Source of the DNA: Citricoccus sp. SGAir0253
GTDB lineage: Bacteria > Actinomycetota > Actinomycetes > Actinomycetales > Micrococcaceae
NCBI RefSeq assembly: GCF_005877055.1
Contig: NZ_CP039424.1
Location: 1,736,001-1,800,000 of the forward strand
Length of the DNA stretch: 64,000 nt
Direction of reading: 5' to 3'
In this document: one piece after another, positions 1 through 15,988 of the stretch
Layout of the letters: each line of letters starts with the position of its first letter
Numbering within the stretch: the stretch's first letter is position 1
The notes under the pieces: model-generated
The model's input: the letters and a program-made list of their open reading frames with translations, nothing else
What the model was told of the DNA's origin: nothing
The model's database searches: none
Made by a program: the position numbers and the translations under genes

Positions 1-1049
1 AGCTGGCGGACCGCGGCCGCCAGGACCTCCTCGGCGGAGATCCTGCCCAGCAGCGGGTCCAGGGCGGTGCCGTGGGGGTCGCCCCACGGCCCGGCGTCGG
101 GATCGCCGTGCCACAGCACGGCGTGCAGGTCCTCGTCCACGGCCGGCCCCCACGCGGCGGGCGGCACCGGGCCGAAGAGCACCACGGACGGCACGCACCA
201 GGCCGTGGCCAGGTGGGCGATGCCGGTGTCCGCGCTCAGCACCAGGCCCGCGTCCCGGACCGCGGCCGAGAGCCCGGCCAGGTCGTGGCGGCCCGTGTGG
301 TCGTGGACGCCCTCGAGCCCCTCGGCCACGACGCGGCCCAGGGGTGCCTCCGCGGCCGAGCCGGTGACGACCACGCGGTGGCCCCGTCCCGCCAGGCCGG
401 CGGCCACCGCGCGCCAGCGGCGCGCCGGCCAGTGCCGGGAGGCGGAGGCGGCCCCGGGGTGGAGCACGACGTCGGCCGGGCCGGGGCGCCGGCGCGCCTC
501 GGCCCGGGGCCGCAGCCGCAGGTCCTCGGGCCCGCAGTCCGCGCCGGCGTGCGTGACGAGGCGGCACCAGCGCAGCACCTCGTGCTCCTCCTCGCGCCAC
601 GCGGGGCCGGCATGGCCGGCGTCGGCGGAACCGAAGGCGATGAGCCGCTCCGGCCGGGCGGCGGCGAGGAGCCGGTGGCTCGCCGGCCCGCGGCCGTGCA
701 GGTTCACGGCGACGAGCCCGGCCGGGACGTCCGGCAGCGGCACGAGGCCCGGCAGCGGCAGCACGTCGTCGACGACGCCCTCCCGGGCGAGCAGGCCCGC
801 CGGCCCCGGGGGGCCGGCGAGCACGATCCTGCGGTCCGGGACCAGCCGACGCAGCCCGCGCAACGCGGCCACCGCCGTCAGCGCGTCGCCGAGGCCCAGG
901 GCGCGCAGGACGAGCACGTCCCCGGGGCGCAGCGTCCCGGGCGGCCGGCCCGGGGCGGTGTCCGCCCCGCGCGCGGCCAGCCAGTCCGCCGTGTACGGTT
1001 CCGGTCCCGTGCCGCGGTCCCCGGCGCCGGCCACGTCCTCAGCGGGCAT
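1..1049 (-). CDS. Glycosyltransferase family 9 (heptosyltransferase-like), partial at left edge
   Basis: Last gene of the heptose operon, cut by the left window edge with 349 codons visible. It should transfer a heptose from a nucleotide-activated donor to an acceptor at the inner face of the membrane. The GT9 signature is clear: a beta-strand followed by HPGA near residue 193, then SADTGIAHLATAW near residue 270 and a LFGPVPP segment after it, the usual donor-binding half of ADP-heptosyltransferases. The ATG chosen overlaps the end of hldE by 11 nt and has GGGGAA upstream; a GTG 15 nt further in is an alternative start. The acceptor cannot be told from sequence. Family assignment is firm, heptose as donor is inferred from the neighbours. 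Confidence 0.85.
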   Translation of the reverse strand, partial: MPAEDVAGAGDRGTGPEPYTADWLAARGADTAPGRPPGTLRPGDVLVLRALGLGDALTAVAALRGLRRLVPDRRIVLAGPPGPAGLLAREGVVDDVLPLPGLVPLPDVPAGLVAVNLHGRGPASHRLLAAARPERLIAFGSADAGHAGPAWREEEHEVLRWCRLVTHAGADCGPEDLRLRPRAEARRRPGPADVVLHPGAASASRHWPARRWRAVAAGLAGRGHRVVVTGSAAEAPLGRVVAEGLEGVHDHTGRHDLAGLSAAVRDAGLVLSADTGIAHLATAWCVPSVVLFGPVPPAAWGPAVDEDLHAVLWHGDPDAGPWGDPHGTALDPLLGRISAEEVLAAAVRQ

Positions 1050-2490
1050 CCACGTTCCCCGCGGCGATCCGCTCGACGATGCCCGTGGTGGAGCGCCCGG
1101 GCAGGTAGGGGAGCACCTCGACACGGCCGCCCCAGCCCCGCACGAGCGGGGCCTCCGGCAGGTCCTCGGCGCGGTAGTCCCCGCCCTTGGCCCAGACGTC
1201 GGGGCGCAGCCGGTCCAGGGCGGCCCGGGGGTCGTCCTCCTCGAAGACGATCACCCCGTCCACGTCCCGCAGGCCCATGAGCACGGCCGCGCGGTCCTCC
1301 TGGCCCACGACCGGCCGCGCGGGGCCCTTGAGCCGGCGCACGGAGTCGTCGGCGTTGAGCAGCACCACGAGCACGTCCCCGAGGTCGCGTGCCCGGCGCA
1401 GGGTCTCGAGGTGCCCCGGGTGGAGGACGTCGAAGCAACCGCCCGTGGCCACGACCGTCCCCCCGCGGGCGCGCGTGGCGGCCACGGCGCGCAGCGCGGC
1501 CTCGGCGGGGTCCTCGGTGCTGGGCCGGTCGGCGCCGTCCCGCACGGCGGCGGTGCCGTCGGGCCCGATCCGGCCGTCGCGGAAGGCGGCGGCCCCGCCC
1601 GCGCCGACCCACCGGGCCGCGGCCGTCACGGCCCGGCCGACCGCGCCGTGCACCGAGGTGCCCTCCGCGAGGTGGGTGGCCACGGCGGCGGCGAAGCGGT
1701 CCCCCGCCCCGCAGGGGTCGCTCGAGTCCACGGGCAATGCCGGCACCAGCTCGGCGGCGCCCTCGGAGGCGACGAACGCGCCGCGTGCCCCCGCGGTGAC
1801 GGACACGGCGCCCGCCCGCCAGCCGATCCGCAGGGCCTCCGCGAGGTCCTCGTCGGCGACCTCGGCGGGCACCGTGACGGCGTCCCGCAGGGAGGCCAGC
1901 GCGGCGCGGGCCTCGGCGAGGTTGGGGGTGACCACGGCGCAGCCGGGCACGGGGTCGCACCCGCGCGGGTGCGGGTCCCACACGACGGGCACCCGCTCGG
2001 CGGCCGCGGCCAGGGCCGTGCGCACGGTCGCGTCCCGCGTGACCCCGCCCCCGTAGTCGGAGACGAGCACGACGTCGGCGCCCTCGAGCACCCGGGCCAG
2101 CCGGCCGGCGTCGAGGTCCCGGGGCGTCCCGGGCCCGCCCTCGTCCACCCGGACGAGGGTCTGTCCCGCGCTGCGGATGCGGGTCTTGGTGCGCGTCCCG
2201 CCGGCATGGCCGAGGGCCTCCAGCTCGATGCCGGCCAGGCCCTCGCGCAGCTCCGCGGCCGCCGCGTCCGCGGCCAGCGGGGCGACCAGCACGACGTGCG
2301 GGGCGGGCCCGGGCAGCCCGCCGGCGCGGCCGGCGCACAGCAGGGCCGCCAGCCCGGCGCCGCCGGGGCTGGCGTGGACGTCGCGGACGTCCACCACGGG
2401 GACGGGGGCGTCCGGGCTGAGCCGTTCGGACGTCCCCGTGACGTCCCGGTCCAGCAGCACGTCCCCGACGATGACGATCCGTGCGCTCAT
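1039..2490 (-). CDS. hldE: Bifunctional heptose 7-phosphate kinase / heptose 1-phosphate adenylyltransferase
   Basis: Makes the activated heptose: the N-terminal half phosphorylates D-glycero-D-manno-heptose 7-phosphate at C1, and the C-terminal half couples heptose 1-phosphate to a nucleotide (ADP in known HldE). Residues 1 to about 320 are a PfkB/ribokinase domain with the GAGD anion-hole and catalytic Asp motif at 261-264. Residues from about 345 form a cytidylyltransferase-like domain with GGCFDVLHPGH, the HxGH nucleotide-binding motif at 357-360. Length 483 is close to the Gram-negative enzyme. GGAGGAAGGGG precedes the ATG. The gene follows the GT4-GmhA fusion by 46 nt. HldE is a hallmark of LPS-type heptose synthesis, so its presence in an actinobacterium is notable. 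Confidence 0.92.
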   Translation of the reverse strand: MSARIVIVGDVLLDRDVTGTSERLSPDAPVPVVDVRDVHASPGGAGLAALLCAGRAGGLPGPAPHVVLVAPLAADAAAAELREGLAGIELEALGHAGGTRTKTRIRSAGQTLVRVDEGGPGTPRDLDAGRLARVLEGADVVLVSDYGGGVTRDATVRTALAAAAERVPVVWDPHPRGCDPVPGCAVVTPNLAEARAALASLRDAVTVPAEVADEDLAEALRIGWRAGAVSVTAGARGAFVASEGAAELVPALPVDSSDPCGAGDRFAAAVATHLAEGTSVHGAVGRAVTAAARWVGAGGAAAFRDGRIGPDGTAAVRDGADRPSTEDPAEAALRAVAATRARGGTVVATGGCFDVLHPGHLETLRRARDLGDVLVVLLNADDSVRRLKGPARPVVGQEDRAAVLMGLRDVDGVIVFEEDDPRAALDRLRPDVWAKGGDYRAEDLPEAPLVRGWGGRVEVLPYLPGRSTTGIVERIAAGNVDAR

Positions 2491-2536
2491 GGTGTCCCCT
2501 TCCTCCCTGGTCCGGCGCCGTGCACCGGACCGGCCT

Positions 2537-4369
2537 CTAGTCCTCGGTGAATCCCTGGTCCATCACAGCACACACCGCGTGCAGGAGGACCAGGTGCGCC
2601 TCCTGCACCACCGAGGTGGACTCGGCGGGCACGCACAGGGTCTCGTCGGCGAGCTCGGCGAGGGCGTTGGGCCCCCGGCCGGTCAGCGCCCACACCTGCA
2701 GGCCCGTCTCGCGCGCGCGGCGGGCGGCCGCGAGCACGTTGGGACTGGACCCGGACGTGGACAGCAGCACGAGGATGTCCCCCGGCCGGCCGTGGGCCTG
2801 CACCTGACGGGCGAACACCTCCTCGCCGCCGTAGTCGTTGACGATCGCCGTGAGCGAGGAGGTCTCGGCGGACAGGCACACGGCCGCCAGCGGGCGGCGT
2901 TCACCCTGGAAGCGCCCGACGAGCTCGGCCGTGAAGTGCTGGGCCTCGGCGGCGCTGCCGCCGTTGCCCGCGGCGAGCACGCGGCCGCCGTCGCGCACGT
3001 GCTCGAACAGCCGCCGGCCCCAGGACTCGACCATCTCGGCCTCCTCCTCGAGGGACGCCAGGGCGCGGTCGAGCTGCCCGCGGTGCTCGGCGAGCATGCT
3101 GCGGGTCTGGGCGGGCCGGTGCGGGTTGGCGCACCGGTAGGCCTCGAGGGCCTCGCGGTAGGCCTGTTCCGTCAGGCCGGCCACGCGCTCCCAGGAGAAC
3201 AGGCGCGTGACCCGGTCCCGGCCCGCCGCGCCCATCCGCTCGGCCAGCCCGGGGTCGTCGGCGAGCCGGCGCAGCGCCGCCGCCGTGGCGTCCGCGTCCC
3301 GCGCGGGCACCAGCAGCCCCGTCACCCCGTCCTCCACGCTGTCCAGCAGCCCGCCCACGGCGGAGCCGACCACCGGACGGCCGCACGCCATCGCCTCCAG
3401 CGGCACGATCCCGAAGGGCTCGTACCACGGGGTGCAGGTGACCACGTCCGCCGAGGCCAGCAGCGCCGCGGCCTCCTCGCGGCCGAGCCGGCCGGTCAGG
3501 GTGAGCCGGTCGGCCACCCCGAGCTCCCCGGCCAGTGCGGTCAGCCGGCGCGCCTCCGGGTCCGTGGCGAGCCCCGCCGCGTCCGGGCCGCCGGCCACGG
3601 TCAGGTGTGCCTCGGGGACCTGCGCGAGGGCCCGCACGGCGAGGTCCACGCCCTTGCGCTCGACCAGCCGGCCCAGCGCCACGACCCTGAGGGGGTCGCC
3701 GGCGGCGCGCCGGGCACGGCCGTCGGCCGGGTGGGGAGCCGGCGTGAAGGCGTGGGCGTCCACGCCGCACGGGACGACCCGGACGCGGTCGGGATCGGCG
3801 CCCAGGCCCATGAGCTCCTGCACCTCGTCCCGGCACGTGGCCAGGACCAGCTGGGTGCGCGCCACCAGCCGGGCCTCGGTGCCGAGCCGGCAGGCCGGGC
3901 TCGTGTCCGCGGTGCCCTGGTGGCGGCGCTTCACCGAGCCCAGGGCGTGGAACGTCTGCACCACGGGGATCCGCACGGCGGCGGCCGCCGCGGTGGCGGC
4001 CATCCCGGACATCCAGAAGTGGGCGTGCACGAGGTCCGGCACCCCGTCCCGGCGCCAGTGCGCCGTCATCCACCGCGCGAAGCCGTCCATGAACGGGACG
4101 AGCTCGTCCTTGGGCAGCACGGCGGCCGGCCCGGCGGGCACGTGGACCACGGTCACGCCCTCGGCGGCGGGGACCTCCTCCGGCAGGTCCGGGTCGTCGC
4201 GGCGCGTGTAGACGCGCACGCGGTGGCCGCACCGGCCGAGCTCGGCGGCGAGGGCCGCCACGAAGACGTTCTGGCCACCCGCGTCCACGCCGCCGAGGGC
4301 GGCCAGCGGCGAGGCGTGCTCGGAGACCATGGCGATGTCCAGCCGGTCCCCCACGGCGATCCCGGTCAC
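2537..4369 (-). CDS. gmhA: Fusion: GT4 glycosyltransferase + sedoheptulose 7-phosphate isomerase (GmhA)
   Basis: One uninterrupted 610-residue frame. Residues 1 to about 400 are a GT4/GT-B glycosyltransferase: N-terminal GGVDAGGQNVFV acceptor-side loop, then a C-terminal donor domain with a YEPFGIVPLEAMACGRPVV segment (E-x7-E motif). Residues 425-610 are a full-length SIS domain of the GmhA type, with GNGGSAA at 468-474 and STSGSSPN at 537-544, the phosphate-binding loops; it should convert sedoheptulose 7-phosphate to D-glycero-D-manno-heptose 7-phosphate. The start is a GTG overlapping the upstream stop (GTGA). An internal ATG at codon 425 has no visible ribosome site, so a separate gmhA is not favoured. 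The fusion joins the first step of heptose synthesis to a transferase. Confidence 0.88.
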   Translation of the reverse strand: MTGIAVGDRLDIAMVSEHASPLAALGGVDAGGQNVFVAALAAELGRCGHRVRVYTRRDDPDLPEEVPAAEGVTVVHVPAGPAAVLPKDELVPFMDGFARWMTAHWRRDGVPDLVHAHFWMSGMAATAAAAAVRIPVVQTFHALGSVKRRHQGTADTSPACRLGTEARLVARTQLVLATCRDEVQELMGLGADPDRVRVVPCGVDAHAFTPAPHPADGRARRAAGDPLRVVALGRLVERKGVDLAVRALAQVPEAHLTVAGGPDAAGLATDPEARRLTALAGELGVADRLTLTGRLGREEAAALLASADVVTCTPWYEPFGIVPLEAMACGRPVVGSAVGGLLDSVEDGVTGLLVPARDADATAAALRRLADDPGLAERMGAAGRDRVTRLFSWERVAGLTEQAYREALEAYRCANPHRPAQTRSMLAEHRGQLDRALASLEEEAEMVESWGRRLFEHVRDGGRVLAAGNGGSAAEAQHFTAELVGRFQGERRPLAAVCLSAETSSLTAIVNDYGGEEVFARQVQAHGRPGDILVLLSTSGSSPNVLAAARRARETGLQVWALTGRGPNALAELADETLCVPAESTSVVQEAHLVLLHAVCAVMDQGFTED

Positions 4370-5325
4370 GCGACCACCCCCTCGATCAACACGTCCCAGT
4401 CGGCCAGGAACCGCTCCAGCCCGTAGTGCTCGAGGGCGTGCGCGCGGGCGGCGGCGCCGGCCTCGGCGGCCACGTCCGGCTCGCGCAGCCACTGGCCGCC
4501 GCGCGCGCACAGCTCCGCCGGGTCGTTGCTGAGCAGCCCCGCGGCGGCCGGCACGGCGCGCGGGCCCTCGGTCGTGGAGAGGCCGAGCACCGGCAGGCCC
4601 AGCGTCATGGCCTCGATCATCGCCAGGCCCAGGCTGGTCCACCGGTAGGGGTGCAGGTAGGCCCGGTGCGCGCCCAGGGCCCGGTGCAGCTCCGACTGCC
4701 GGTAGTCCTCGTGGACGCAGCCCTCCAGCCACGGCGCTCGACCGACGAGCTGGTCCATCCCCATGCCGTAGACCTCGACCGGCAGGTCCCGGGCGAGGTC
4801 GAGCATGAGGTCGGTGCCGGCCACGCGCGTGCGGCGCACGGGCTCGTTCACGACGACGGCGAGCGACTCGCGCTCGCCCGTGTAGAGGTGCCCCGGGTCC
4901 GGGATGCCGTGCTCGAGCACCGTGGTGCGCGCGGTGCCGTTGTCCCACATGACGCGGTTGAAGTGGGTGACGTGGACGACCGGCACGGCGTCCTGGTCCG
5001 CGTACGGGTGGCGGGTGGCCACCGCGGGACCGGTCGGGGCGTTGTGCTCGAGGTACACCGCCGGCACGTCGATCCCGGCGCGCAGCCCCGTCCAGGCCTC
5101 CAGCAGCCCCGCCTCGTGGGGGCGCTGCAGCACCACGAGGTCCACCCGCTCGCCGGCGAGCTCCTCGGAGGTGCGCTCGACCGCGCTGGCCGGCCAGTCC
5201 CACGTCCGGGCGCGGCCGCGGCCGTCGGGGCCGCGCTCCGCGTCGACCGGCAGCAGGTAGTCGTGGCGGCCCTGGACGAACGAGGTCATCCAGGAGCCGT
5301 GCACGTGCCAGATCAGGATGCGCAT
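4366..5325 (-). CDS. Glycosyltransferase, GT4/GT1-like
   Basis: A 319-residue protein resembling a compact GT-B glycosyltransferase. The N-terminal strand MRILIWHVHGSW and the late segment YRWTSLGLAMIEAM followed by GLPVLGLSTTEGPRAV match the donor-binding part of GT4 enzymes, with Glu residues in the E-x7-E region. The chosen ATG follows AAGGAG with 5 nt spacing, the best ribosome site in the cluster; longer in-frame readings upstream would run through the preceding gene. It overlaps the GT9 gene by 13 nt and the GT4-GmhA fusion by 4 nt, so it is cotranscribed and probably translationally coupled. Sugar specificity is unknown; context suggests a step in the same heptose-containing glycan. 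Confidence 0.75.
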   Translation of the reverse strand: MRILIWHVHGSWMTSFVQGRHDYLLPVDAERGPDGRGRARTWDWPASAVERTSEELAGERVDLVVLQRPHEAGLLEAWTGLRAGIDVPAVYLEHNAPTGPAVATRHPYADQDAVPVVHVTHFNRVMWDNGTARTTVLEHGIPDPGHLYTGERESLAVVVNEPVRRTRVAGTDLMLDLARDLPVEVYGMGMDQLVGRAPWLEGCVHEDYRQSELHRALGAHRAYLHPYRWTSLGLAMIEAMTLGLPVLGLSTTEGPRAVPAAAGLLSNDPAELCARGGQWLREPDVAAEAGAAARAHALEHYGLERFLADWDVLIEGVVA

Positions 5326-6467
5326 GGATCTCCTTCTCGGGGGGACGGGGTTCGGGGGGCCGGGAGGTTCCCGGGGCCGGCGCCGGGCGCCGGGACGGGG
5401 CCGCCGTCGGGAGGCTCCGCGGCCGGGGCTGCGACGAGGGCCGCGACCGCCTCGGCCACCTGGTCGCCGGTGACGCCGCCCAGGCACGGGTGCCCGGGCA
5501 CCGGGCACTCCCGCGCCCGGCTGTCCCGGCAGGGGGCGTGCTGGTCGCCCAGCAGCCGGACCGGCACGCCCCAGGGCGCCCACCGCTCGGCGGGCACCAC
5601 CGGGGAGAACAGCGAGACCACCGGGGTGCCGACGGCGGCGGACAGGTGGGCCGGGCCGGTGTTACCCACCACGGTGCAGCAGGCCGCCTCGAGCACCGCG
5701 GCGAGACCGGCGAGGTCCGTGGCGGCGGCGAGGTCGACGACGGTGCCCGCCGGCTGCCGCCGCAGGGCCCCGGCCACCGTGGCGGCCGCCAGCTCCCGCT
5801 CGGCCGGCCCGCCGGTGACGACGACGGCGTGCCCGGCCTCCGCGAGGGCCGCGGCGAGGCCGGCGGCGTGCTCGGCGCGCAACCCGCGCGCCGGCACGGA
5901 GGCGCCGGGGTGCAGCACCACGTAGCCACCGGAGCGCAGGTCCGCGGGCAGCCGGTCGGTCAGCGGCGGCAGCGGCCGGCGCACGGCCAGCCGGGGATCG
6001 CGGGGGCGCGGGGCCCCGGCGGCGACGGCGACCTCGAGGGCCGCCTCGACCTCGTGCCCGCCGCCCGGCGGGTCCTCGCGCCGCAGGCGCACGTCGAGCA
6101 GGGAGCCGGGATAGTCCACGCTCGTGCCCACGACGTGGCCGATGCCGGCCATCCGGGCCAGCAGGGCCATGGGCAGCGGACTCTGGTGGAAGGAGGTGAA
6201 GATCGCCGCCCGCCCGTAGCCGCCGCGCCGCAGCCGCTCGACGAGCCGGAGCGTGGCCGGGGCGTTCACCGGCGGGGGGCGGAAGCCGGACCAGGGCGCG
6301 TCGTACTCCAGGACCGTGTCCACGCCGGGCAGCAGCCTGGCCGCGGCCGCGCCGGAGGGCGAGGCGAGCAGGTCGACCGGCCCGAGGGCGGACAGGGCGC
6401 GGATGGCCGGTCCGGTCAGCAGGACGTCGCCGTCGGAGTCGAGTCGTACCGCGAGGATGCGCGTCAT
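5313..6467 (-). CDS. Glycosyltransferase family 9 (heptosyltransferase-like)
   Basis: Complete GT9 protein of 384 residues, the second in the operon. It opens with ILAVRLDSDGDVLLTGPAIRAL, the typical GT9 N-terminal strand-helix unit, has VVLHPGAS at 183-190 and VVGNTGPAHLSAAVG at 266-280 followed by LFSPVVP, and a Cys cluster at 313, 321 and 328 that is common in this family. These are features of ADP-heptose:acceptor transferases (WaaC/WaaF/RfaQ type), which act in the cytoplasm on a membrane-linked acceptor. The last 50 residues are Pro/Gly/Ala-rich and probably disordered. The ATG overlaps the stop of the GT2-GmhB gene (ATGA). GT9 assignment is firm; the acceptor is unknown. Confidence 0.87.
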   Translation of the reverse strand: MTRILAVRLDSDGDVLLTGPAIRALSALGPVDLLASPSGAAAARLLPGVDTVLEYDAPWSGFRPPPVNAPATLRLVERLRRGGYGRAAIFTSFHQSPLPMALLARMAGIGHVVGTSVDYPGSLLDVRLRREDPPGGGHEVEAALEVAVAAGAPRPRDPRLAVRRPLPPLTDRLPADLRSGGYVVLHPGASVPARGLRAEHAAGLAAALAEAGHAVVVTGGPAERELAAATVAGALRRQPAGTVVDLAAATDLAGLAAVLEAACCTVVGNTGPAHLSAAVGTPVVSLFSPVVPAERWAPWGVPVRLLGDQHAPCRDSRARECPVPGHPCLGGVTGDQVAEAVAALVAAPAAEPPDGGPVPAPGAGPGNLPAPRTPSPREGDPCAS

Positions 6468-8092
6468 GGGGTGGGCCGGTCCCCCGTCCCGGCGGGGGCG
6501 CCGTCGGCGACCAGGGCGAGCACGAGGTCAACGGCGGCGGCCAGGTCCGGGGCCGTGACCGGCGCGTCGGCGACCTCCTCGGCGCGGGTCACCGGGGTGG
6601 GCACGAGGACGGATCGGGCGCCGGCGGCCTGGGCGGCCTCGACGTCCGCGCCGATGTCCCCGATGAGCACGCACTCCTCCGGCCGCACGCCGAGCGCCCG
6701 GGCGGCGGCGAGGACCATGCCGGGGCGGGGCTTGCGGCAGGCGCAGCCGTCCCCCGGGCCGTGTGGGCAGACCTGCCACGCGCCGAACGGACCGAGCAGC
6801 TCCTCCACGCGGGCGTTGACGGCGTCCACCTGGTCCCGGGAGACGAGCCCCCGCGCCACCCCCGACTGGTTGGACACCACGGCGGTGGCCAGCCCGGCGG
6901 CCCGCACGCGGTCGAGGGCCTCGCGGGCGCCGTCCACGGGACGGACGAGGGCCGGATCGCCGTTGTAGGGGACGTCGTGCACGAGCGTGCCGTCGCGGTC
7001 GAACAGCACGGCGCGCGGGCGCACCGGCCACGCGCCGGTCCCGCGGTGCCGCGCCCAGCCGGCGAGGCGGTGGCGCACCGCGGCCGGCGGGATCGTGGCA
7101 CTGGTCAGGACCATGCGGCGCAGCTCCGCGCCGAAGCCGGGCTCGCCGGGGCGGGGTCCGGGGCCCAGGCGCCGGACGAGGAACCGCCGGTACAGGCCCG
7201 CCCAGGCGGCGGTGCCGGCCCCGGCCACCCAGCCCGCGCCGTGCACGCCGGCCAGCCGGGCGAGGCTGCCGCCGGCCGCCGCGGCGAGGGCCGCCGTCGT
7301 GGCCACGTGCCAGCCGAACGTCCCGGCGGGGGCCTCGGCGTGCCGGCGCCACCGGGGGCCGTGCAGCCGGCGCATGAGCGCGTTGTCGGCGTTGCCGGCC
7401 TGCACCCGGTGGCTCACCCAGTCGTCGGCCGGACGGACGGGGTGCAGGATGCCGCGGCGCCCGCGCACGAGCCGGTACCCGGCGCGGCGCACGCGCAGCG
7501 CCAGGTCGGCGTCCTCGCGGTAGGCGCGCGGGAAGCGCTCGTCGAAGCCGTGCACGCGCTCGAGCACGTCGCGGCGGTAGGCCATGTCCGCGGTGGCCCA
7601 GTCGGCGTCCTCGAGCGAGGCCGTGTTCCGCTCCCAGTCGGTGGGGCGCCGGTCCGCTGGCAGGGGCACGGTGATCCGGCCCTGCGTGGCGCCGACGTCC
7701 GGGCCGCACGCCGCGAGGTCCTCGGCCAGCCGTCGGGCCCAGTCCGCCGGGACCTCGACGTCGTCGTCCAGGAAGGCGATCCACTCGACCGCCGGGTCCA
7801 CGGCGCGCCAGCCGCGGTTGCGGGCGGCGGCCGGTCCGCGGCCGTGGCCGCGGACCACCCGCACCGGCCGGCCGGCCACGGCGGGCGCCAGCGGCTCCGG
7901 CGGGACAGCGGGCGGCGCGGGGTCGCGGCGGTCGTCCACCACCACGACCTCGACGGGACCCGGATGCCGGTCGTCCGTCTCGAGGGCCGCGACGGTCTCG
8001 AGCAGCCGGTCCAGGGACGGCCGGCCGACCGAGGGGATGACGAGCGCGTAGGAGGGCGCGGGGGGCGTGGCGTGGGAGGCGGCGTGGGTCAT
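6464..8092 (-). CDS. gmhB: Fusion: GT2 glycosyltransferase + heptose bisphosphate phosphatase (GmhB-like)
   Basis: A 542-residue two-domain protein. Residues 13 to about 270 are a GT2 GT-A domain: SYALVIPSVGRPSLDRLLETV, then FLDDDVEVPADW with the metal-binding Asp triplet at 109-111. Residues about 355-542 are a HAD-IIIA phosphatase with DRDGT (nucleophile Asp and acid Asp) at 365-369, and C-P-H-x5-C-x-C-RKPRPGM, the zinc loop that marks histidinol-phosphatase/GmhB proteins, then VLIGDIGADVEAA. It should remove the C7 phosphate of D-glycero-D-manno-heptose 1,7-bisphosphate, the step between the two HldE activities. The start overlaps the carbamoyltransferase stop (ATGA). With the GT4-GmhA fusion it makes two heptose enzymes tied to transferases in one operon. 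Confidence 0.88.
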   Translation of the reverse strand: MTHAASHATPPAPSYALVIPSVGRPSLDRLLETVAALETDDRHPGPVEVVVVDDRRDPAPPAVPPEPLAPAVAGRPVRVVRGHGRGPAAARNRGWRAVDPAVEWIAFLDDDVEVPADWARRLAEDLAACGPDVGATQGRITVPLPADRRPTDWERNTASLEDADWATADMAYRRDVLERVHGFDERFPRAYREDADLALRVRRAGYRLVRGRRGILHPVRPADDWVSHRVQAGNADNALMRRLHGPRWRRHAEAPAGTFGWHVATTAALAAAAGGSLARLAGVHGAGWVAGAGTAAWAGLYRRFLVRRLGPGPRPGEPGFGAELRRMVLTSATIPPAAVRHRLAGWARHRGTGAWPVRPRAVLFDRDGTLVHDVPYNGDPALVRPVDGAREALDRVRAAGLATAVVSNQSGVARGLVSRDQVDAVNARVEELLGPFGAWQVCPHGPGDGCACRKPRPGMVLAAARALGVRPEECVLIGDIGADVEAAQAAGARSVLVPTPVTRAEEVADAPVTAPDLAAAVDLVLALVADGAPAGTGDRPTP

Positions 8093-9729
8093 CGGGCGAA
8101 GAACCCCGCGCGGCGGACGAGGTGCGGGCCCAGGACGAGGGCGGCCACGGGCGCCGAGCCGAAGAGCTCGAGTGCGTCCCGGGGGTCGTCCACCATGGGC
8201 CGGCCGGCCGTGTTGAGGCTCGTGTTGACGACCACCGGAACCCCCGTGCGCTCGTCGACGGCACGCAGCAGGGCGGCGATGCCCGGGTTGTCCCGGTCGC
8301 TGACCGTCTGGATGCGCGCGGAGCCGTCCACGTGGGTCACCGTGGGGATGCGGTCCCGCCACTCCGGCGCGACCCGGTGGGTGAAGAGCATGTACGGGCT
8401 GGGGATCGGCCCGCCGCTGAAGATCTCGGCGGCGCGCTCCTCGAGCACCATGGGGGCCACGGGGCGGAACTGCTCGCGCCCCTTGACGTCGTTGAGCCGC
8501 TCGAGGTTCTCCGCGTGCATGGGGTTGGCGAGCAGGGAGCGGCGCCCCAGCGCACGCGGGCCGAACTCGCTGCGCCCGTCGAACCAGGCGATGACCCCGT
8601 TGTCCGCGAGGATGTCCGCCACCTCGGCGGCCAGGGCCTCGCGGGAGCCGGGGGTGGTGAACGGCACCTGGGCGGTGGTGAGCCACCGGGCCAGCTCCTC
8701 GTCGCTCCAGCTGCGGCCCAGCGCCGCGGTCGGCTCGGGCTCGGCCAGTTCGCCGGCCTGCTGGGCCAGGACGAGGGCCGCGCCGAGGGCCGTGCCCGAG
8801 TCGCCCGAGGCCGGCTGGACCCAGACGTCCTCGAACCCGGCCTCGCGCCACACGCGGGAGTTGGCCACGCAGTTCAGGGCGGTGCCCCCGGCCATGGTCA
8901 GCACGGTCTCGCCGGTGCGCCCGCGCAGCCAGCGGGCCAGGTCCACGAGGGTCTCCTCGACGACCAGCTGGACCGAGGCGGCGAGGTCCGCGTGGTCCCC
9001 GCCCCACGTGCCGTCGTCGATCCGGCGGGGGGCGAACCGCTCCCACTCCGGGGCCCGCGCGGTGAAGCCGCCGTCCCCGGTGGCGTGCACGCACTCGCGC
9101 AGCGCGTCGGCGAAGCGGGGCGTGCCGTAGGAGGCCAGGGCCATGACCTTGAACTCGTCCGAGGAGCGCAGGAAGCCCAGGTGGTCGGTGAGGGACTCGT
9201 ACACGAGGCCGAGGGAGTCCGGCAAGGCCTGGCGGGCCAGGATCGTCAGCTCCCCGTCGCGGTACTGCCCGGCCAGGTGGGAGTGGGCCTCGCCGCGGCC
9301 GTCCGTGACCAGGACGGCGCCGCTGCGGTAGGGCCCGGCGAGCCCGGAGGAGGCAGCGTGGGCCACGTGGTGCGGGACGAAGGTGACCTTGTCCCGGTCC
9401 AGGCCGGGCAGTGCCTCGGCGAGGAAGCCCGGGGCGCGGCGCACGTAGTCGATCCGCACGTGGTCGTACGGGTCGTCCGGGACCTCGGCCGCCATCTCCG
9501 GGTCGAACGAGTAGCCGACGCCGTCGAGCTCCCCCGGCGTGATGCCCGCGTGCTCGAGGACCCAGCGCATGGACTGCTCGGGCAGTTCCCACGCCGAGAA
9601 CGGGACGGGACGCTTGCCGTGCTTGCGGCGGGAGAAGCGCTCCTCCTCCGCGGCCGCCACGACCTTGCCGTCGACCACCAGCGCAGCGGCGGGGTCGTGG
9701 AACGTTGCATTCACTCCGAGGTATCGCAC
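8089..9729 (-). CDS. Carbamoyltransferase, NodU/CmcH/TobZ family
   Basis: First gene of the heptose operon. Family members use carbamoyl phosphate and ATP to make a carbamoyl adenylate and then carbamoylate a sugar or other hydroxyl group. The N-terminal Kae1-like half begins RYLGVNATFHDPAAALVVDG and contains FVPHHVAHAAS, with the His residues used for metal and nucleotide binding; the C-terminal YrdC-like half has FGPRALGRRSLLANP and VVNTSLNTAGRPMV, conserved signatures. The GTG at 9729 puts the first residue where the family starts; a GTG 18 nt upstream is possible but has no well-spaced ribosome site. Context suggests O-carbamoylation of the heptose-containing glycan. Substrate is inferred. 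Confidence 0.87.
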   Translation of the reverse strand: MRYLGVNATFHDPAAALVVDGKVVAAAEEERFSRRKHGKRPVPFSAWELPEQSMRWVLEHAGITPGELDGVGYSFDPEMAAEVPDDPYDHVRIDYVRRAPGFLAEALPGLDRDKVTFVPHHVAHAASSGLAGPYRSGAVLVTDGRGEAHSHLAGQYRDGELTILARQALPDSLGLVYESLTDHLGFLRSSDEFKVMALASYGTPRFADALRECVHATGDGGFTARAPEWERFAPRRIDDGTWGGDHADLAASVQLVVEETLVDLARWLRGRTGETVLTMAGGTALNCVANSRVWREAGFEDVWVQPASGDSGTALGAALVLAQQAGELAEPEPTAALGRSWSDEELARWLTTAQVPFTTPGSREALAAEVADILADNGVIAWFDGRSEFGPRALGRRSLLANPMHAENLERLNDVKGREQFRPVAPMVLEERAAEIFSGGPIPSPYMLFTHRVAPEWRDRIPTVTHVDGSARIQTVSDRDNPGIAALLRAVDERTGVPVVVNTSLNTAGRPMVDDPRDALELFGSAPVAALVLGPHLVRRAGFFAR

Positions 9730-9824
9730 CTCTGCAGTGTTGCACACCCCTGCCGGGAGAGGGGTTCCGGCGTGTCACCGCCCCGGTCCGGGGAGCATTG
9801 CCGCAGGTCAGGACGCGGTTGGGG

Positions 9825-9847
9825 GCCCGTGGACCTCGTCCACGGGC
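9825..9847 (-). terminator. Hairpin terminator downstream of glgA
   Basis: A perfect 10-bp stem (GCCCGTGGAC with GTCCACGGGC) closes on a 3-nt loop, about 68 nt beyond the glgA stop. There is no T-run, as is common in high-GC actinobacteria. It separates the glg gene from the heptose operon, whose first gene starts 96 nt further on. The rest of the gap between 9730 and 9914 holds no gene. Confidence 0.55.
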
Positions 9848-9914
9848 TTCCGGACGCCGACGGCGGCGAGCCCGCCGTCCGCCGCCGGGCCCCGGGCCGC
9901 CGCAGTGGCCCCGC

Positions 9915-12517: not shown

Positions 12518-13363
12518 CTAGGCGACCCGGGTGATGAGCACCTCCACCGCGAGGCGCGAGCCGCCGCCGCCGGAGACGATGCCCTTGAGCGGCGTGACAT
12601 CCCGGTAGTCCCGTCCCCGGCCCACCAGCACGTGCAGGTCCCCGGCGGGTTGGGAGTTGGTGGGGTCCCAGGCGTGCCAGGACCCGTCCCACCACTCCAG
12701 CCACGCGTGCGACTGCCCGGCCACCTCGGTGCCGAGGGCCGCGCCGGGGCGGGGATGGATGTACCCGGAGACGTAGCGGGCCGGGATGCCGAGGGCCCGC
12801 ATCATCCCGATGCCCACGTGGGCGAGGTCCTGGCACACGCCGCGGCCGCTGGCGAGGGCCTCCTCCGCGCCGAAGTGCACGGCGGTGACCCCGGGCTGGT
12901 AGGCCATGGCGCCGTCGAGCCACTCCAGCACGTTCAGGACCGTCTCGTGCGGGCGGGCCGCCCGCAGCCCCCGGGCCTGCCCGCGCGCCTCGGCCCCGGG
13001 GTCCGAGAGGCGCGTCTGCGGGAGGAAGTCGGAGAACTCGTGCACCGTGGCCGGGGACTCCAGGCGGGCCCAGTCCGTGGACTCGTCCGTCCCCGCGGAG
13101 GCGGAGCGGTGGACCTCCACGGTGGCCGAGGCGAGCACCTCCAGGGCCTCGTGCGGGACGTGGACGTCGAAGGCGGTGACGCGGGTGCCCCAGTAGTCCC
13201 GGTAGGTCGTGGCCACGGCCTGGCGCGGGGTGATGGCGATCGCCGACTCGAGCGTGGTCTGCTGGGCGTCGGTCACCGGGGTCATCCGTGCCTCGTTGTA
13301 CGAGGTCGTCGCCCGGCGGTTGTACTCGTAGCTGGTGCGGTGCGTGACGTGCAGGCGGCTCAT
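12518..13363 (-). CDS. Transglutaminase-like cysteine protease-fold protein (triad member)
   Basis: A 281-residue protein with an N-terminal bacterial transglutaminase beta domain (MSRLHVTHRTSYEYN) and a transglutaminase core. The catalytic triad is readable: Cys in GRGVCQDLAHV, His in GQSHAWLEWW and Asp in WDPTN. Members probably act as peptidases or amidases rather than cross-linkers. The start ATG overlaps the stop of the alpha-E gene (ATGA); upstream in-frame sequence runs through that gene and is not used. It forms a three-gene unit with the alpha-E and ATP-grasp genes, the same set as Mycobacterium tuberculosis Rv2409c-Rv2411c. The substrate is unknown. Confidence 0.88.
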   Translation of the reverse strand: MSRLHVTHRTSYEYNRRATTSYNEARMTPVTDAQQTTLESAIAITPRQAVATTYRDYWGTRVTAFDVHVPHEALEVLASATVEVHRSASAGTDESTDWARLESPATVHEFSDFLPQTRLSDPGAEARGQARGLRAARPHETVLNVLEWLDGAMAYQPGVTAVHFGAEEALASGRGVCQDLAHVGIGMMRALGIPARYVSGYIHPRPGAALGTEVAGQSHAWLEWWDGSWHAWDPTNSQPAGDLHVLVGRGRDYRDVTPLKGIVSGGGGSRLAVEVLITRVA

Positions 13364-14283
13364 GAGACCTCCCCGACCCACGACAGTTCCTGGCCGCGGG
13401 AGAAGTACTTGGCGCTGATCGCCTCGGAGGCCCGGGCGCAGCTGAGTTGGACACGGTGCAGGAAGATCGGCAGGGAGGTCTCCAGCTGGTCCGGCGTGGA
13501 GTACTCCAGCGTGGAGCGCATGTCGCCCACGATGCGGCGGGCGTCGTCCATGAACCCGACGCGGTTCGAGGCCGGGTCCAGGGACACCAGGCACTGCTCG
13601 GCGTCCTGGAGGGCGCGCAGCACGGAGCGGGGGAAGAGGCGGTCCAGCAGGAGGAACTCCCCGGCGTGCTCCTCCCCCATGGTGGCGCGCTGGGTGCGCA
13701 GGAACGACTCGTAGGCCCCGGCACAGCGCAGCATGGTCACCCAGGACAGCCCCAGCGCCTCCGACTCGCGGGTGGCGAGCATGCGGGCGGTCATGTCCGC
13801 CCGCTCGAGGGACCGGCCGAGCTCCAGGAACAGCCAGGCCTCGTCGTGGCTCATGGTGGAGTCCGCGAGGCCGCGGATCATGGCGGTGCGCTCGAGCACC
13901 CAGTGGCAGAAGCGGTAGGTGCCCACCACGTCCCGGCGGTGCTGGCCCAGCCCGTACCACGTGGTGTTGAGCGCCTCCCACAGCGAGGAGGACACGGTCT
14001 CGCGCGCCCGGCGGGCGTTCTCCCGCGCCGCCCCGAGGGCACCGGAGACGGAGTGCGTGCTCGACCGGGTGAAGGCGAGCGTGTTGAGCAGCGAGCCGAG
14101 GGTGTACTCCTCCGGCTGGGGAACGCCCATGATGGTCAGCAGCTCGCGCGTGACCGTCTCCTGCTCCTCCGCCCCGGCGCCGTTGAGGCGCTCCAGGTGC
14201 ACGTCGAGGATGCGCGCGGTGCCGTCGGCGCGCTCGACGTAGCGGCCGATCCAGAACAGCGACTCGGCGATGCGGCTCAGCAT
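13360..14283 (-). CDS. Alpha-E domain protein (DUF403)
   Basis: A 307-residue all-helical protein starting MLSRIAESLFWIGRYVERAD, the characteristic opening of alpha-E proteins, with a second ERADMTARML helix near residue 177. The family has no known enzymatic activity but is almost always encoded beside a circularly permuted ATP-grasp protein and a transglutaminase-like protein, as here. It overlaps both neighbours (7 nt upstream, 4 nt downstream), so the three are coupled in translation. Comparative genomics of ATP-grasp systems has suggested a role in making or modifying a small peptide; that remains a prediction. Confidence 0.88.
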   Translation of the reverse strand: MLSRIAESLFWIGRYVERADGTARILDVHLERLNGAGAEEQETVTRELLTIMGVPQPEEYTLGSLLNTLAFTRSSTHSVSGALGAARENARRARETVSSSLWEALNTTWYGLGQHRRDVVGTYRFCHWVLERTAMIRGLADSTMSHDEAWLFLELGRSLERADMTARMLATRESEALGLSWVTMLRCAGAYESFLRTQRATMGEEHAGEFLLLDRLFPRSVLRALQDAEQCLVSLDPASNRVGFMDDARRIVGDMRSTLEYSTPDQLETSLPIFLHRVQLSCARASEAISAKYFSRGQELSWVGEVS

Positions 14284-15917
14284 GACTCCTCCTCCCGGCC
14301 CGCGCCGCCGGGCGCGGGATCGGCGTCGGCGCACTGCCGGGCCTGTTGCTGCTGCTCGGGCATCAGCCCGATCTCCTCGAGCGGGCTGGGGGCCTGCTCC
14401 TCGGGCCAGTCGTCGCCCACCACGTGCACCTGCGGTTCCGGGCCGGCGTCGTCCGCGGGGCGCGCCGCGGCCCCGGTGCGGGCCATCACCCACGTGTCCT
14501 TCGAGCCGCCGCCCTGGGAGGAGTTCACGATCAGGGACCCCTCCTGCAGCGCCACGCGGGTCAGGCCGCCGGGCAGCACCCACACGTCCTCGCCGTCGTT
14601 CACCGCGAAGGGCCGCAGGTCCACGTGCCGGGGGCCGAACCGGCCGCCGGCGAGGGTGGGCACGGTGGACAGCTGCAGCACCGGCTGGGCGATCCACCCG
14701 CGGGGGGACTCCAGCAGCTTGCGGCGCAGCTCCTCGAGCTCCGCCGGCGAGGCGTCCGGGCCGATGACGAGCCCCTTGCCGCCCGAGCCGTCCACCGGCT
14801 TGACGACGAGCTCGTCGAGCCGGTCCATGACCTCCTCGCGCGCCGCGGGCTCCTCGAGGCGGAAGGTGTCCACGTTGGGCACGATCGGGTCCTCCCCGAG
14901 GTAGTACCGGGTCAGGTCCGGCATGTACGTGTAGACGAGCTTGTCGTCCGCCACCCCGTTGCCCACGGCGTTGGCGATGGTCACGTTGCCGGCCCGGGCC
15001 GCGTTGACGATGCCCGGGACGCCGAGCATCGAGTCAGAGCGGAAGTGCAGCGGGTCCAGGAAGTCGTCGTCGATGCGCTTGTAGATCACGTCCACGCGCC
15101 GCTCGCCGTCCGTGGTGCGCATGTAGACCTTGTTGGCGCGCGTGACGAGGTCCCGGCCCTCCACGAGCTCGACGCCCATCATCCCGGCCAGCAGGGTGTG
15201 CTCGAAGTAGGCCGAGTTGTACACGCCGGGGGTCAGGACCACCACGACGGGGTCCTCGATGTCCGTCGGCGCCGTCCGGCGCAGGGCGGCCAGCAGCCGG
15301 CGGGGGTACTCCTCCACGGGCCGGACGTTGACGGAGCCGATGGCCTCGGGCAGGCCCTTGGACATGGCGCGCCGGTTCTCGATGACGTAGGAGACCCCGG
15401 AGGGCACCCGGACGTTGTCCTCGAGGACCCGGAAGGTGCCGGAGGCGTCCCGGACGACGTCGATGCCGGAGACGTGCACGCGCACCCCGCCGGCGGGACG
15501 GAAGCCGTGGACGGCGCGGTGGAAGTGGGCGCTGGTGGTGATGAGCGAGCGCGGGACGACCCCGTCCCGCACCACGGACATCGTCGAGTACACGTCGTCC
15601 AGGAAGGCCTCGAGCACGCGGACGCGCTGGGCCACGCCGGCCTCGAGCACGTCCCAGTCGTCGGCGGGGATGACACGCGGGACGATGTCGAGCGGCCACG
15701 CGCGCTCCTCCCCGGCGTAGTCGAAGGTCACGCCGCGGTCCAGGAACGTCCGGGCCATCGACTCGGCGCGCGCGGTCACGTCGTCGAGCGAGAGGGCCTC
15801 GAGGGCGCGCTCGACCGGTCGGTAGTCACGGCGCAGGCTGAACCCCGGGGCGAACATCTCGTCCCACGCGGGGCTGCGCTGGAGCGCCTCGGCATAGCCG
15901 GTGAACAGGTCGGACAT
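14277..15917 (-). CDS. Circularly permuted ATP-grasp protein, type 2 (DUF404/DUF407)
   Basis: A 546-residue ATP-grasp enzyme with permuted domain order, expected to form an amide bond by an acyl-phosphate intermediate. Visible signatures: VLEDNVRVPSGVSYVIENRR, GVYNSAYFEHTLLAGMMGVELVEGRDL, a DVIYKRIDDDFLDP metal/ATP segment, and VVKPVDGSGGKG, the phosphate-grasping loop. The last 60 residues are low-complexity, with Gln and Pro/Ala runs. The ATG follows GGAGG at very short spacing. It leads the triad with the alpha-E and transglutaminase-like genes. It lies divergent to pepN. The acceptor and donor amino acids are unknown. Confidence 0.9.
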   Translation of the reverse strand: MSDLFTGYAEALQRSPAWDEMFAPGFSLRRDYRPVERALEALSLDDVTARAESMARTFLDRGVTFDYAGEERAWPLDIVPRVIPADDWDVLEAGVAQRVRVLEAFLDDVYSTMSVVRDGVVPRSLITTSAHFHRAVHGFRPAGGVRVHVSGIDVVRDASGTFRVLEDNVRVPSGVSYVIENRRAMSKGLPEAIGSVNVRPVEEYPRRLLAALRRTAPTDIEDPVVVVLTPGVYNSAYFEHTLLAGMMGVELVEGRDLVTRANKVYMRTTDGERRVDVIYKRIDDDFLDPLHFRSDSMLGVPGIVNAARAGNVTIANAVGNGVADDKLVYTYMPDLTRYYLGEDPIVPNVDTFRLEEPAAREEVMDRLDELVVKPVDGSGGKGLVIGPDASPAELEELRRKLLESPRGWIAQPVLQLSTVPTLAGGRFGPRHVDLRPFAVNDGEDVWVLPGGLTRVALQEGSLIVNSSQGGGSKDTWVMARTGAAARPADDAGPEPQVHVVGDDWPEEQAPSPLEEIGLMPEQQQQARQCADADPAPGGAGREEESC

Positions 15918-15988
15918 GCCTCCAGCATTCCACGACGGCGGCCCCGGCCCGGTCACCGCCACGGGCGGCTGGCCCCCGGGGCCGCCCC

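Follow-up and report, generated by a model that had tools for sequence, protein, structure and literature searches.

A cwg-type gene cassette of Citricoccus predicted to build a heptose-containing envelope oligosaccharide

Introduction

What would a Gram-positive bacterium build with enzymes that activate heptose? The question is raised by a 64,000-nucleotide stretch of Citricoccus sp. SGAir0253 (contig NZ_CP039424.1, positions 1,736,001 to 1,800,000, with 74.8% G+C in a genome of 3.56 Mb), referred to below as the window. According to its list of open reading frames and the reading of the window, seven minus-strand genes (G1–G7) were tightly packed across positions 1–9747. Together with two genes found to the left of the window (G8 and G9), they formed a cassette resembling the cwg (cell wall glycan) operon of Streptomyces. 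The relatives' loci compared here included the best 80 among 581 confirmed stretches, an uneven sample.

Results

Identity of the cassette as a cwg-type operon

The cwg operon of Streptomyces coelicolor comprises SCO6179–6190, is induced by vancomycin and is partly sigma-E dependent (PMC6767563), and the cell wall glycan named as its product is described only as predicted or tentative (PMC6767563, PMC5839063). The products given are a transferase (cwgB), a transferase (cwgC), a dehydratase (cwgD) and a transferase (cwgE) for SCO6180–6183, and a transferase (cwgG), phosphoheptose isomerase (cwgH), bifunctional synthase/transferase (cwgI) and transferase (cwgJ) for SCO6185–6188 (PMC5839063). Locus L144 of S. 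coelicoflavus was used as a stand-in for S. coelicolor, which was outside the best 80 loci. Its gene order, UXS-CarbT-GT2-HAD-GT9-GT4x-GT4-GmhA-HldE-GT9-GT2-GT2 (UXS, UDP-xylose synthase; CarbT, carbamoyltransferase; GT, glycosyltransferase family), agreed with the published list wherever products are named, and its last two GT2 genes matched G9 in its N-terminal and C-terminal half, respectively. The published cwg promoter had a single near-copy in L144, upstream of the UXS gene, with 3 mismatches in 29 positions and no such match in 100 shuffles.

When the window and the 3 kb to its left (20 kb were read in this direction) were compared with L144, counterparts of all twelve gene types, cwgA–L, were found. 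The HAD gene would, by its position, correspond to cwgD, annotated as a dehydratase. As judged by this comparison, the cassette is a cwg-type operon in the form that Citricoccus and its relatives among the Micrococcaceae carry. With cwg of S. coelicolor it has in common the twelve gene types (judged on S. coelicoflavus), the order from the carbamoyltransferase to the second GT9 gene and the prediction of an envelope glycan. The two differ in that the twelve separate cwg genes are reduced to nine by three fusions, GT2 with GmhB (G2), GT4 with GmhA (G5) and GT2 with GT2 (G9), and in that the UXS gene, first in cwg, stands at the 3' end, with the tandem GT2 gene convergent to it. The initial annotation had rightly recognised a heptose pathway outside Gram-negatives, but it missed that this type of operon is already known from Streptomyces. 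A heptose reading of the cwg product, the nine-gene fused form and the empty site within the genus described below were not met in the searches made of open-licence PMC papers.

Heptose activation enzymes

The isomerase, kinase, phosphatase and nucleotidyltransferase of the ADP-heptose activation set were all encoded, with catalytic motifs intact on sequence comparison. G6 (1039..2490, minus strand), the cwgI counterpart, encodes an HldE-type bifunctional heptose-7-phosphate kinase/heptose-1-phosphate nucleotidyltransferase with the C-terminus YLPGRSTT. G5 (2537..4369, minus strand), corresponding to cwgG and cwgH, joins a GT4 domain (residues ~8–410) like those of MshA and sucrose-phosphate synthase to a GmhA domain (~430–606). 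In G2 (6464..8092, minus strand), corresponding to cwgC and cwgD, a GT2 domain (residues ~1–350) is followed by a GmhB-like HAD-IIIA phosphatase domain (~360–520), recognised by domain matches and by its DxD and Zn-type CxH...CxC motifs; the named PDB relatives of this domain include GmhB.

The motifs were aligned with the window row in place of L010, and with L091 and matches that were below 38% identity or contained a stop left out. The Asp of GAGD and the His of HxGH in HldE were kept in 80/80 and 82/82 relatives, the Glu and the His of GmhA in 90/90 each, and the DxD of the HAD domain in 88/88; the roles of these residues are those known for the families. The initial annotation had claimed that every step from sedoheptulose 7-phosphate to ADP-D-glycero-D-manno-heptose is covered, and all four activities are indeed predicted from the domains and motifs, beside glycosyltransferases in a Gram-positive host. 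Another function of the PfkB and SIS genes was ruled out by the motifs, the family ranking and the co-occurrence described below, and the domain searches did not place the PfkB/nucleotidyltransferase and SIS genes in other families.

The Arg at the fifth position of the C-terminal HldE motif was present in the window and in 65/82 operon HldEs, and was replaced by His in L049 and L050 of the same genus. In other NDP-heptose (nucleoside diphosphate heptose) enzymes carrying the STTR5 motif this Arg confers promiscuity towards nucleoside triphosphates (Tang et al., PMC11573728, PMC11461863). The window HldE is like them in this residue, which widens their nucleotide use, whereas its motif begins with Tyr instead of Phe/Leu, and its own activity is only predicted.

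Form of the heptose

The initial annotation offered two alternatives, an hldD epimerase gene to the left of the window or direct use of D,D-heptose. No protein exceeded the HldD cut-off (TIGR02197) in any of 42 operon genomes, a subset of all operon genomes, nor in the window's own genome, while 2/14 control genomes had one over it; weaker matches of short-chain dehydrogenase/reductase (SDR) proteins reached up to 139.9 bits vs the cut-off of 274.6. The gene to the left of the window is G8 (−17 to −1051, minus strand; L009:18949-19983), the cwgA counterpart, which overlaps G7 and encodes a UXS-like SDR whose best solved relatives were UDP-glucuronate decarboxylases (2b69, E 3e-105). An HldD hidden on the left was ruled out by the identity of this UXS homologue and by the genome being without HldD over the cut-off. 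Because no HldD exceeded the cut-off in operon genomes, the second alternative is favoured: the D,D-heptose is probably used directly, and an epimerised L,D form appears unlikely unless some other SDR acts.

In many relatives (e.g., L055, L076, L142) a classical SDR gene was located between the HldE gene and the second GT9 gene (GT9b), and it may encode a heptose-modifying dehydrogenase. Neither the window nor S. coelicoflavus has it at that place, and its identity with HldD was ruled out, the one representative scanned being a classical SDR.

Transferases and acceptor

Of the transferase domains in the cassette, two belong to GT9, two to GT4 and three to GT2. The domain calls of the initial annotation stand, except that the GT4-type transferases number two (G4 and the N-terminal half of G5), not one. 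G3 (5313..6467, minus strand), the cwgE counterpart, is a GT9 heptosyltransferase-family protein by its Pfam match and its PDB relative WaaF (1psw). It reads NTGPAH where WaaF has NDSGxxH, with the N and T kept in 91/91 loci. G7 (1049 to −42, minus strand, running past the left edge of the window; L010:9958-11049), the cwgJ counterpart, is a WaaC-like member of the same family with a DTGxxH motif, whose Asp and His were kept in 71/71 relatives. G4 (4366..5325, minus strand), the cwgF counterpart, is a GT4-like (GT-B) glycosyltransferase and served as the operon marker in the genome counts. G9 (−2968 to −1121, plus strand; L009:17032-18879) lies convergently beyond G8 and encodes a tandem GT2-GT2 protein of 615 aa corresponding to cwgK and cwgL. 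In NCBIfam, the GT2 domains in G2 and G9 matched MftF best, far under its cut-off.

The GT4 half of G5 was aligned to MshA of C. glutamicum, to which, along with sucrose-phosphate synthase, it is close. Counterparts of a Lys and an Arg presumed to bind inositol phosphate in MshA were kept in 94/94, while a Tyr and a Thr, which we take to be phosphate contacts, were changed to Phe in 91/94 and to Ala in 94/94, respectively. A phosphorylated acceptor is possible for this domain.

G1 (8089..9747, minus strand, alternative start 9729), the cwgB counterpart, is a NodU/TobZ-type O-carbamoyltransferase with Pfam Carbam_trans_N and _C domains, with TobZ, GdmN and the novobiocin carbamoyltransferase as PDB relatives and with motifs kept in 77/77 loci. 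Heptose is a likely target, because in Pseudomonas the carbamoylation of core heptose is ascribed to WapO, a putative carbamoyltransferase (PMC8005017).

Distribution and empty site

G4 was found in 40/396 sampled Actinomycetota genomes (E 1e-20; a few matches were weak, one having 84 bits), and the nucleotidyltransferase domain of HldE in 53/396. Both were present in 36 genomes, G4 alone in 4 and the HldE domain alone in 17; that is, the domain occurred in 36/40 genomes with G4 vs 17/356 others (Fisher p 1.4e-33, relatedness ignored). They lay within 10 kb on one contig in 35/36 genomes, and the core genes were kept across many actinobacterial families. The co-occurrence of GmhA with G4 (39/40 vs 69/356) is weaker evidence, because GmhA-like proteins matched in 108/396 genomes.

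Within the genus of the window, the block was present in 5/8 genomes. G9 was seen in 4 of the 5 block-bearing genomes, the contig of the fifth (genome G007) ending early in G8. The other three (genomes G002, G004 and G005) showed an empty site by tblastn, with glgA and an acyl-CoA dehydrogenase gene, which elsewhere follows G9, only 89–155 bp apart. G1–G4 and G6–G9 were searched at this site only, and the best match of G5 anywhere in these genomes was an MshA-like protein, ~40% identical. As the block was present or absent as one unit, G9 would be part of the cassette, and hardly anything else seems to have come along, except an upstream gene resembling pyruvyl transferases. This gene, just upstream of G1 and with a short polysaccharide-pyruvyl-transferase match, was detected in three loci of the same genus (L049, L050 and L068) and in Kocuria; L049 and L068 were scanned and L050 was assigned by cluster. 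Gene content and order, cwg orthology, intact motifs, co-occurrence and the cassette boundaries are thus directly seen.

Several neighbouring observations concern relatives. In 20-kb stretches of six Micrococcaceae loci (L060 and L062–L066; genomes G036, G034, G024, G013, G031 and G015) neither the carbamoyltransferase nor the operon GT2 was found. A second, divergent HldE was located a few kb away there (kinase 28–35%, nucleotidyltransferase ~50–56% identical), accompanied by aldehyde dehydrogenase and GT9 genes in a double heptose locus. The reading frames of G1 and GT4 are broken in L051 (genome G003), as is that of the HldE kinase in L048/L068 (G007), which may reflect errors in the draft assemblies or decay. 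Among recurrent ORF clusters, from which L010 was left out, three of ten scanned representatives had no Pfam match and may be antisense open frames. L048, identical to L068, was omitted from the gene-order comparison, and L067 has no G4.

Gene fusions

The initial annotation had pointed to two activation enzymes fused to glycosyltransferases and read this as heptose channelling in a dedicated complex. By an open-frame criterion, GT2 and HAD were fused in 48/69 loci, GT4 and GmhA in 16/91 (separate in 75/91) and the two halves of HldE in 88/88, and GmhA and HldE shared one open frame in 11/86. In the gene-order comparison, GT2 and HAD were separate in 22/65 loci, all 22 from Streptomycetaceae. 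Eleven other between-gene pairs with at least 8 cases each showed no fusion (including 0/82, 0/80, 0/77, 0/75, 0/29, 0/22 and 0/16), so the fusions are real and a chance open frame was ruled out by these neighbour-pair controls. In a tree of 90 GT4 domains built by a quick method, the GT4-GmhA fusion required 6 changes by parsimony, 3 of them forced by well-supported branches, and it was seen in Citricoccus/Kocuria/Dietzia, Kineococcus, Knoellia/Pedococcus and others; two cases with long linkers, L060 (369 nt) and L061 (174 nt), are doubtful. L091, identical to L054, was dropped from the fusion counts, the tree and the motif counts, and L051, with its broken GT4 frame, from the tree. On these data the GT4-GmhA fusion is recurrent and unnecessary for the operon.

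That the fusions mean channelling in a dedicated complex is conjecture: they recur, but GT4 and GmhA are separate in most loci. It is quite possible, if somewhat short of an even chance, that the fusions arose neutrally from the close packing of the genes and carry no information on channelling: GT4 and GmhA are adjacent anyway, so that one lost stop would be enough, and most loci keep them apart. Against this, other tight neighbours never fused, the domains for heptose activation are joined in several combinations (GT2-GmhB, GT4-GmhA and GmhA-HldE), and at least three changes are forced for GT4-GmhA.

The single GmhA-HldE frames (L057, L074, L075, L077, L079, L083, L085, L087, L088, L094 and L126) match the tridomain type of isomerase, kinase and nucleotidyltransferase that PMC11573728 names, with long gaps (up to 339 nt) making some of them uncertain as true fusions.

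Layout and neighbouring features

With the chosen start codons, five junctions among G1–G7 overlapped (G1/G2 4 bp, G2/G3 4 bp, G3/G4 13 bp, G4/G5 4 bp and G6/G7 11 bp), and G5/G6 was the sole gap, of 46 bp, in agreement with the overlapping or closely spaced genes of the initial annotation. Two ARAGORN tRNA calls (934–1021 and 1523–1601) fell within coding sequence and were taken as spurious. Between glgA and G1 (9748–9914), an inverted repeat, CCCGTGGAC...GTCCACGGG, resembles by eye a terminator of glgA, and the operon therefore probably has its own promoter. Further along, beside glgA/glgC, genes for transglutaminase-like, Alpha-E and circularly permuted ATP-grasp proteins stand in a row (12518–15962, minus strand), a frequent neighbour set in actinobacteria.

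Discussion

We consider it likely that this cwg-type cassette of twelve gene types in nine genes builds, in the cytosol, a carbamoylated envelope oligosaccharide containing heptose and probably xylose. All the individual reactions, the order of the sugars, the acceptor and the place where the product ends up are inferred from the findings above. GmhA would isomerise sedoheptulose 7-phosphate, HldE would phosphorylate the product, the GmhB-like domain would take off the 7-phosphate and the C-terminal domain of HldE would charge the sugar to NDP-D-glycero-D-manno-heptose, which, HldD not being found, would be used without epimerisation. G8 would provide UDP-xylose, the seven transferase domains, all apparently soluble, would assemble the oligosaccharide on some acceptor, and G1 would add a carbamoyl group, a role ascribed to WapO for the core heptose in Pseudomonas.

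A number of results weigh against this proposal. Curated cut-offs were not reached by HldE (277.9 vs the NCBIfam cut-off of 521, and 171.6 vs 181.5 for TIGR02199), the GmhA domain (161.3 vs the NCBIfam cut-off of 209.45) or the HAD domain of G2 (66.2 vs 149.6 for GmhB_yaeD); therefore, the HldE, GmhA and GmhB families are clear from good scores, while the exact substrates are predicted. Since G3 is without the donor-motif Asp of WaaF, its donor may be other than ADP-heptose. The cassette is dispensable in 3/8 congeners. The pyruvyl-transferase matches are short (~38 profile positions), and the window lacks the gene. A sigma-E-like pattern gave no site upstream of G1, but it was insensitive, missing the near-copy in L144 as well.

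Export adds to these points. The check for a flippase and a ligase proposed in the initial annotation, here with a polymerase included, gave no match in the window's genome to PF01943 (Wzx) or PF04932 (Wzy/WaaL); it was confined to these two families, leaving aside ABC exporters, MurJ and further kinds of flippase, and controls matched in 13/14 and 9/14, respectively. G1–G9 had no clear membrane segment in a Kyte–Doolittle scan with a 19-residue window (maximum 1.84 vs 2.52 for a membrane control). A Wzx/Wzy polymer is therefore unlikely, which leaves as candidates a short glycolipid, a unit exported by an ABC transporter or MurJ, and a soluble conjugate. The product would be a different surface polymer or lipid, as originally suggested, and most likely ends in the cell envelope. 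Consistent with this, cwg of S. coelicolor is induced by vancomycin and depends in part on sigma-E (PMC6767563), and the pyruvyl-transferase-like gene lies near G1 in the three same-genus loci and Kocuria. Three LCP-family proteins are encoded elsewhere in the window's genome.

Some of the same evidence could be read as pointing to a soluble cytosolic heptose glycoside, akin to mycothiol or mycofactocin, in which the MshA-like GT4 would act on a phosphorylated acceptor and MftF-like GT2s would extend it. The kinship of the G5 GT4 to MshA and sucrose-phosphate synthase, the conserved Lys and Arg counterparts, the sub-threshold MftF matches and the missing PF01943, PF04932 and membrane segments agree with such a product, but the two other presumed phosphate contacts of MshA are changed, in S. 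coelicolor cwg is controlled by cell-envelope stress (PMC6767563) and genes matching polysaccharide pyruvyl transferases are nearby in some relatives, so we regard it as unlikely. Much more remote is a secondary-metabolite cluster using ADP-heptose: Streptomyces uses activated heptose for septacidin (PMC11573728, PMC11461863), and NodU/TobZ carbamoyltransferases also occur in antibiotic pathways, yet no scaffold-building gene was seen in the cassette, its core genes are kept across many actinobacterial families and cwg is regulated as an envelope operon (PMC6767563).

Within the envelope oligosaccharide proposal, the cassette can be compared with the inner-core heptose pathway of lipopolysaccharide in Gram-negatives (GmhA, HldE, GmhB, HldD, WaaC/WaaF and WapO). 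Both have the activation steps, transferases of GT9 and a carbamoyltransferase, and Pseudomonas is known to carbamoylate heptose (PMC8005017), but the cassette differs in having no HldD over the cut-off, a Gram-positive host, a UXS and a G3 without the donor-motif Asp. As a speculation to which we give a low chance, the cwg glycan could be the Gram-positive counterpart of that inner core, with carbamoylated D,D-heptose; HldE would make CDP- and UDP- as well as ADP-heptose, and the GT4-GmhA protein would feed heptose 7-phosphate to its MshA-like GT4 as an acceptor, the isomerase thus supplying both acceptor and donor.

The heptose, carbamoyl and xylose reading of the operon predicts, in specific chemical terms, what an envelope component induced by vancomycin in Streptomyces is made of. 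Likely partner enzymes are indicated by the fusions, and the natural presence and absence of the cassette inside one genus offers ready comparison strains. Because NDP-heptoses are agonists of the vertebrate sensor ALPK1 (PMC11573728), heptose-making actinobacteria would also be relevant to ALPK1 sensing.

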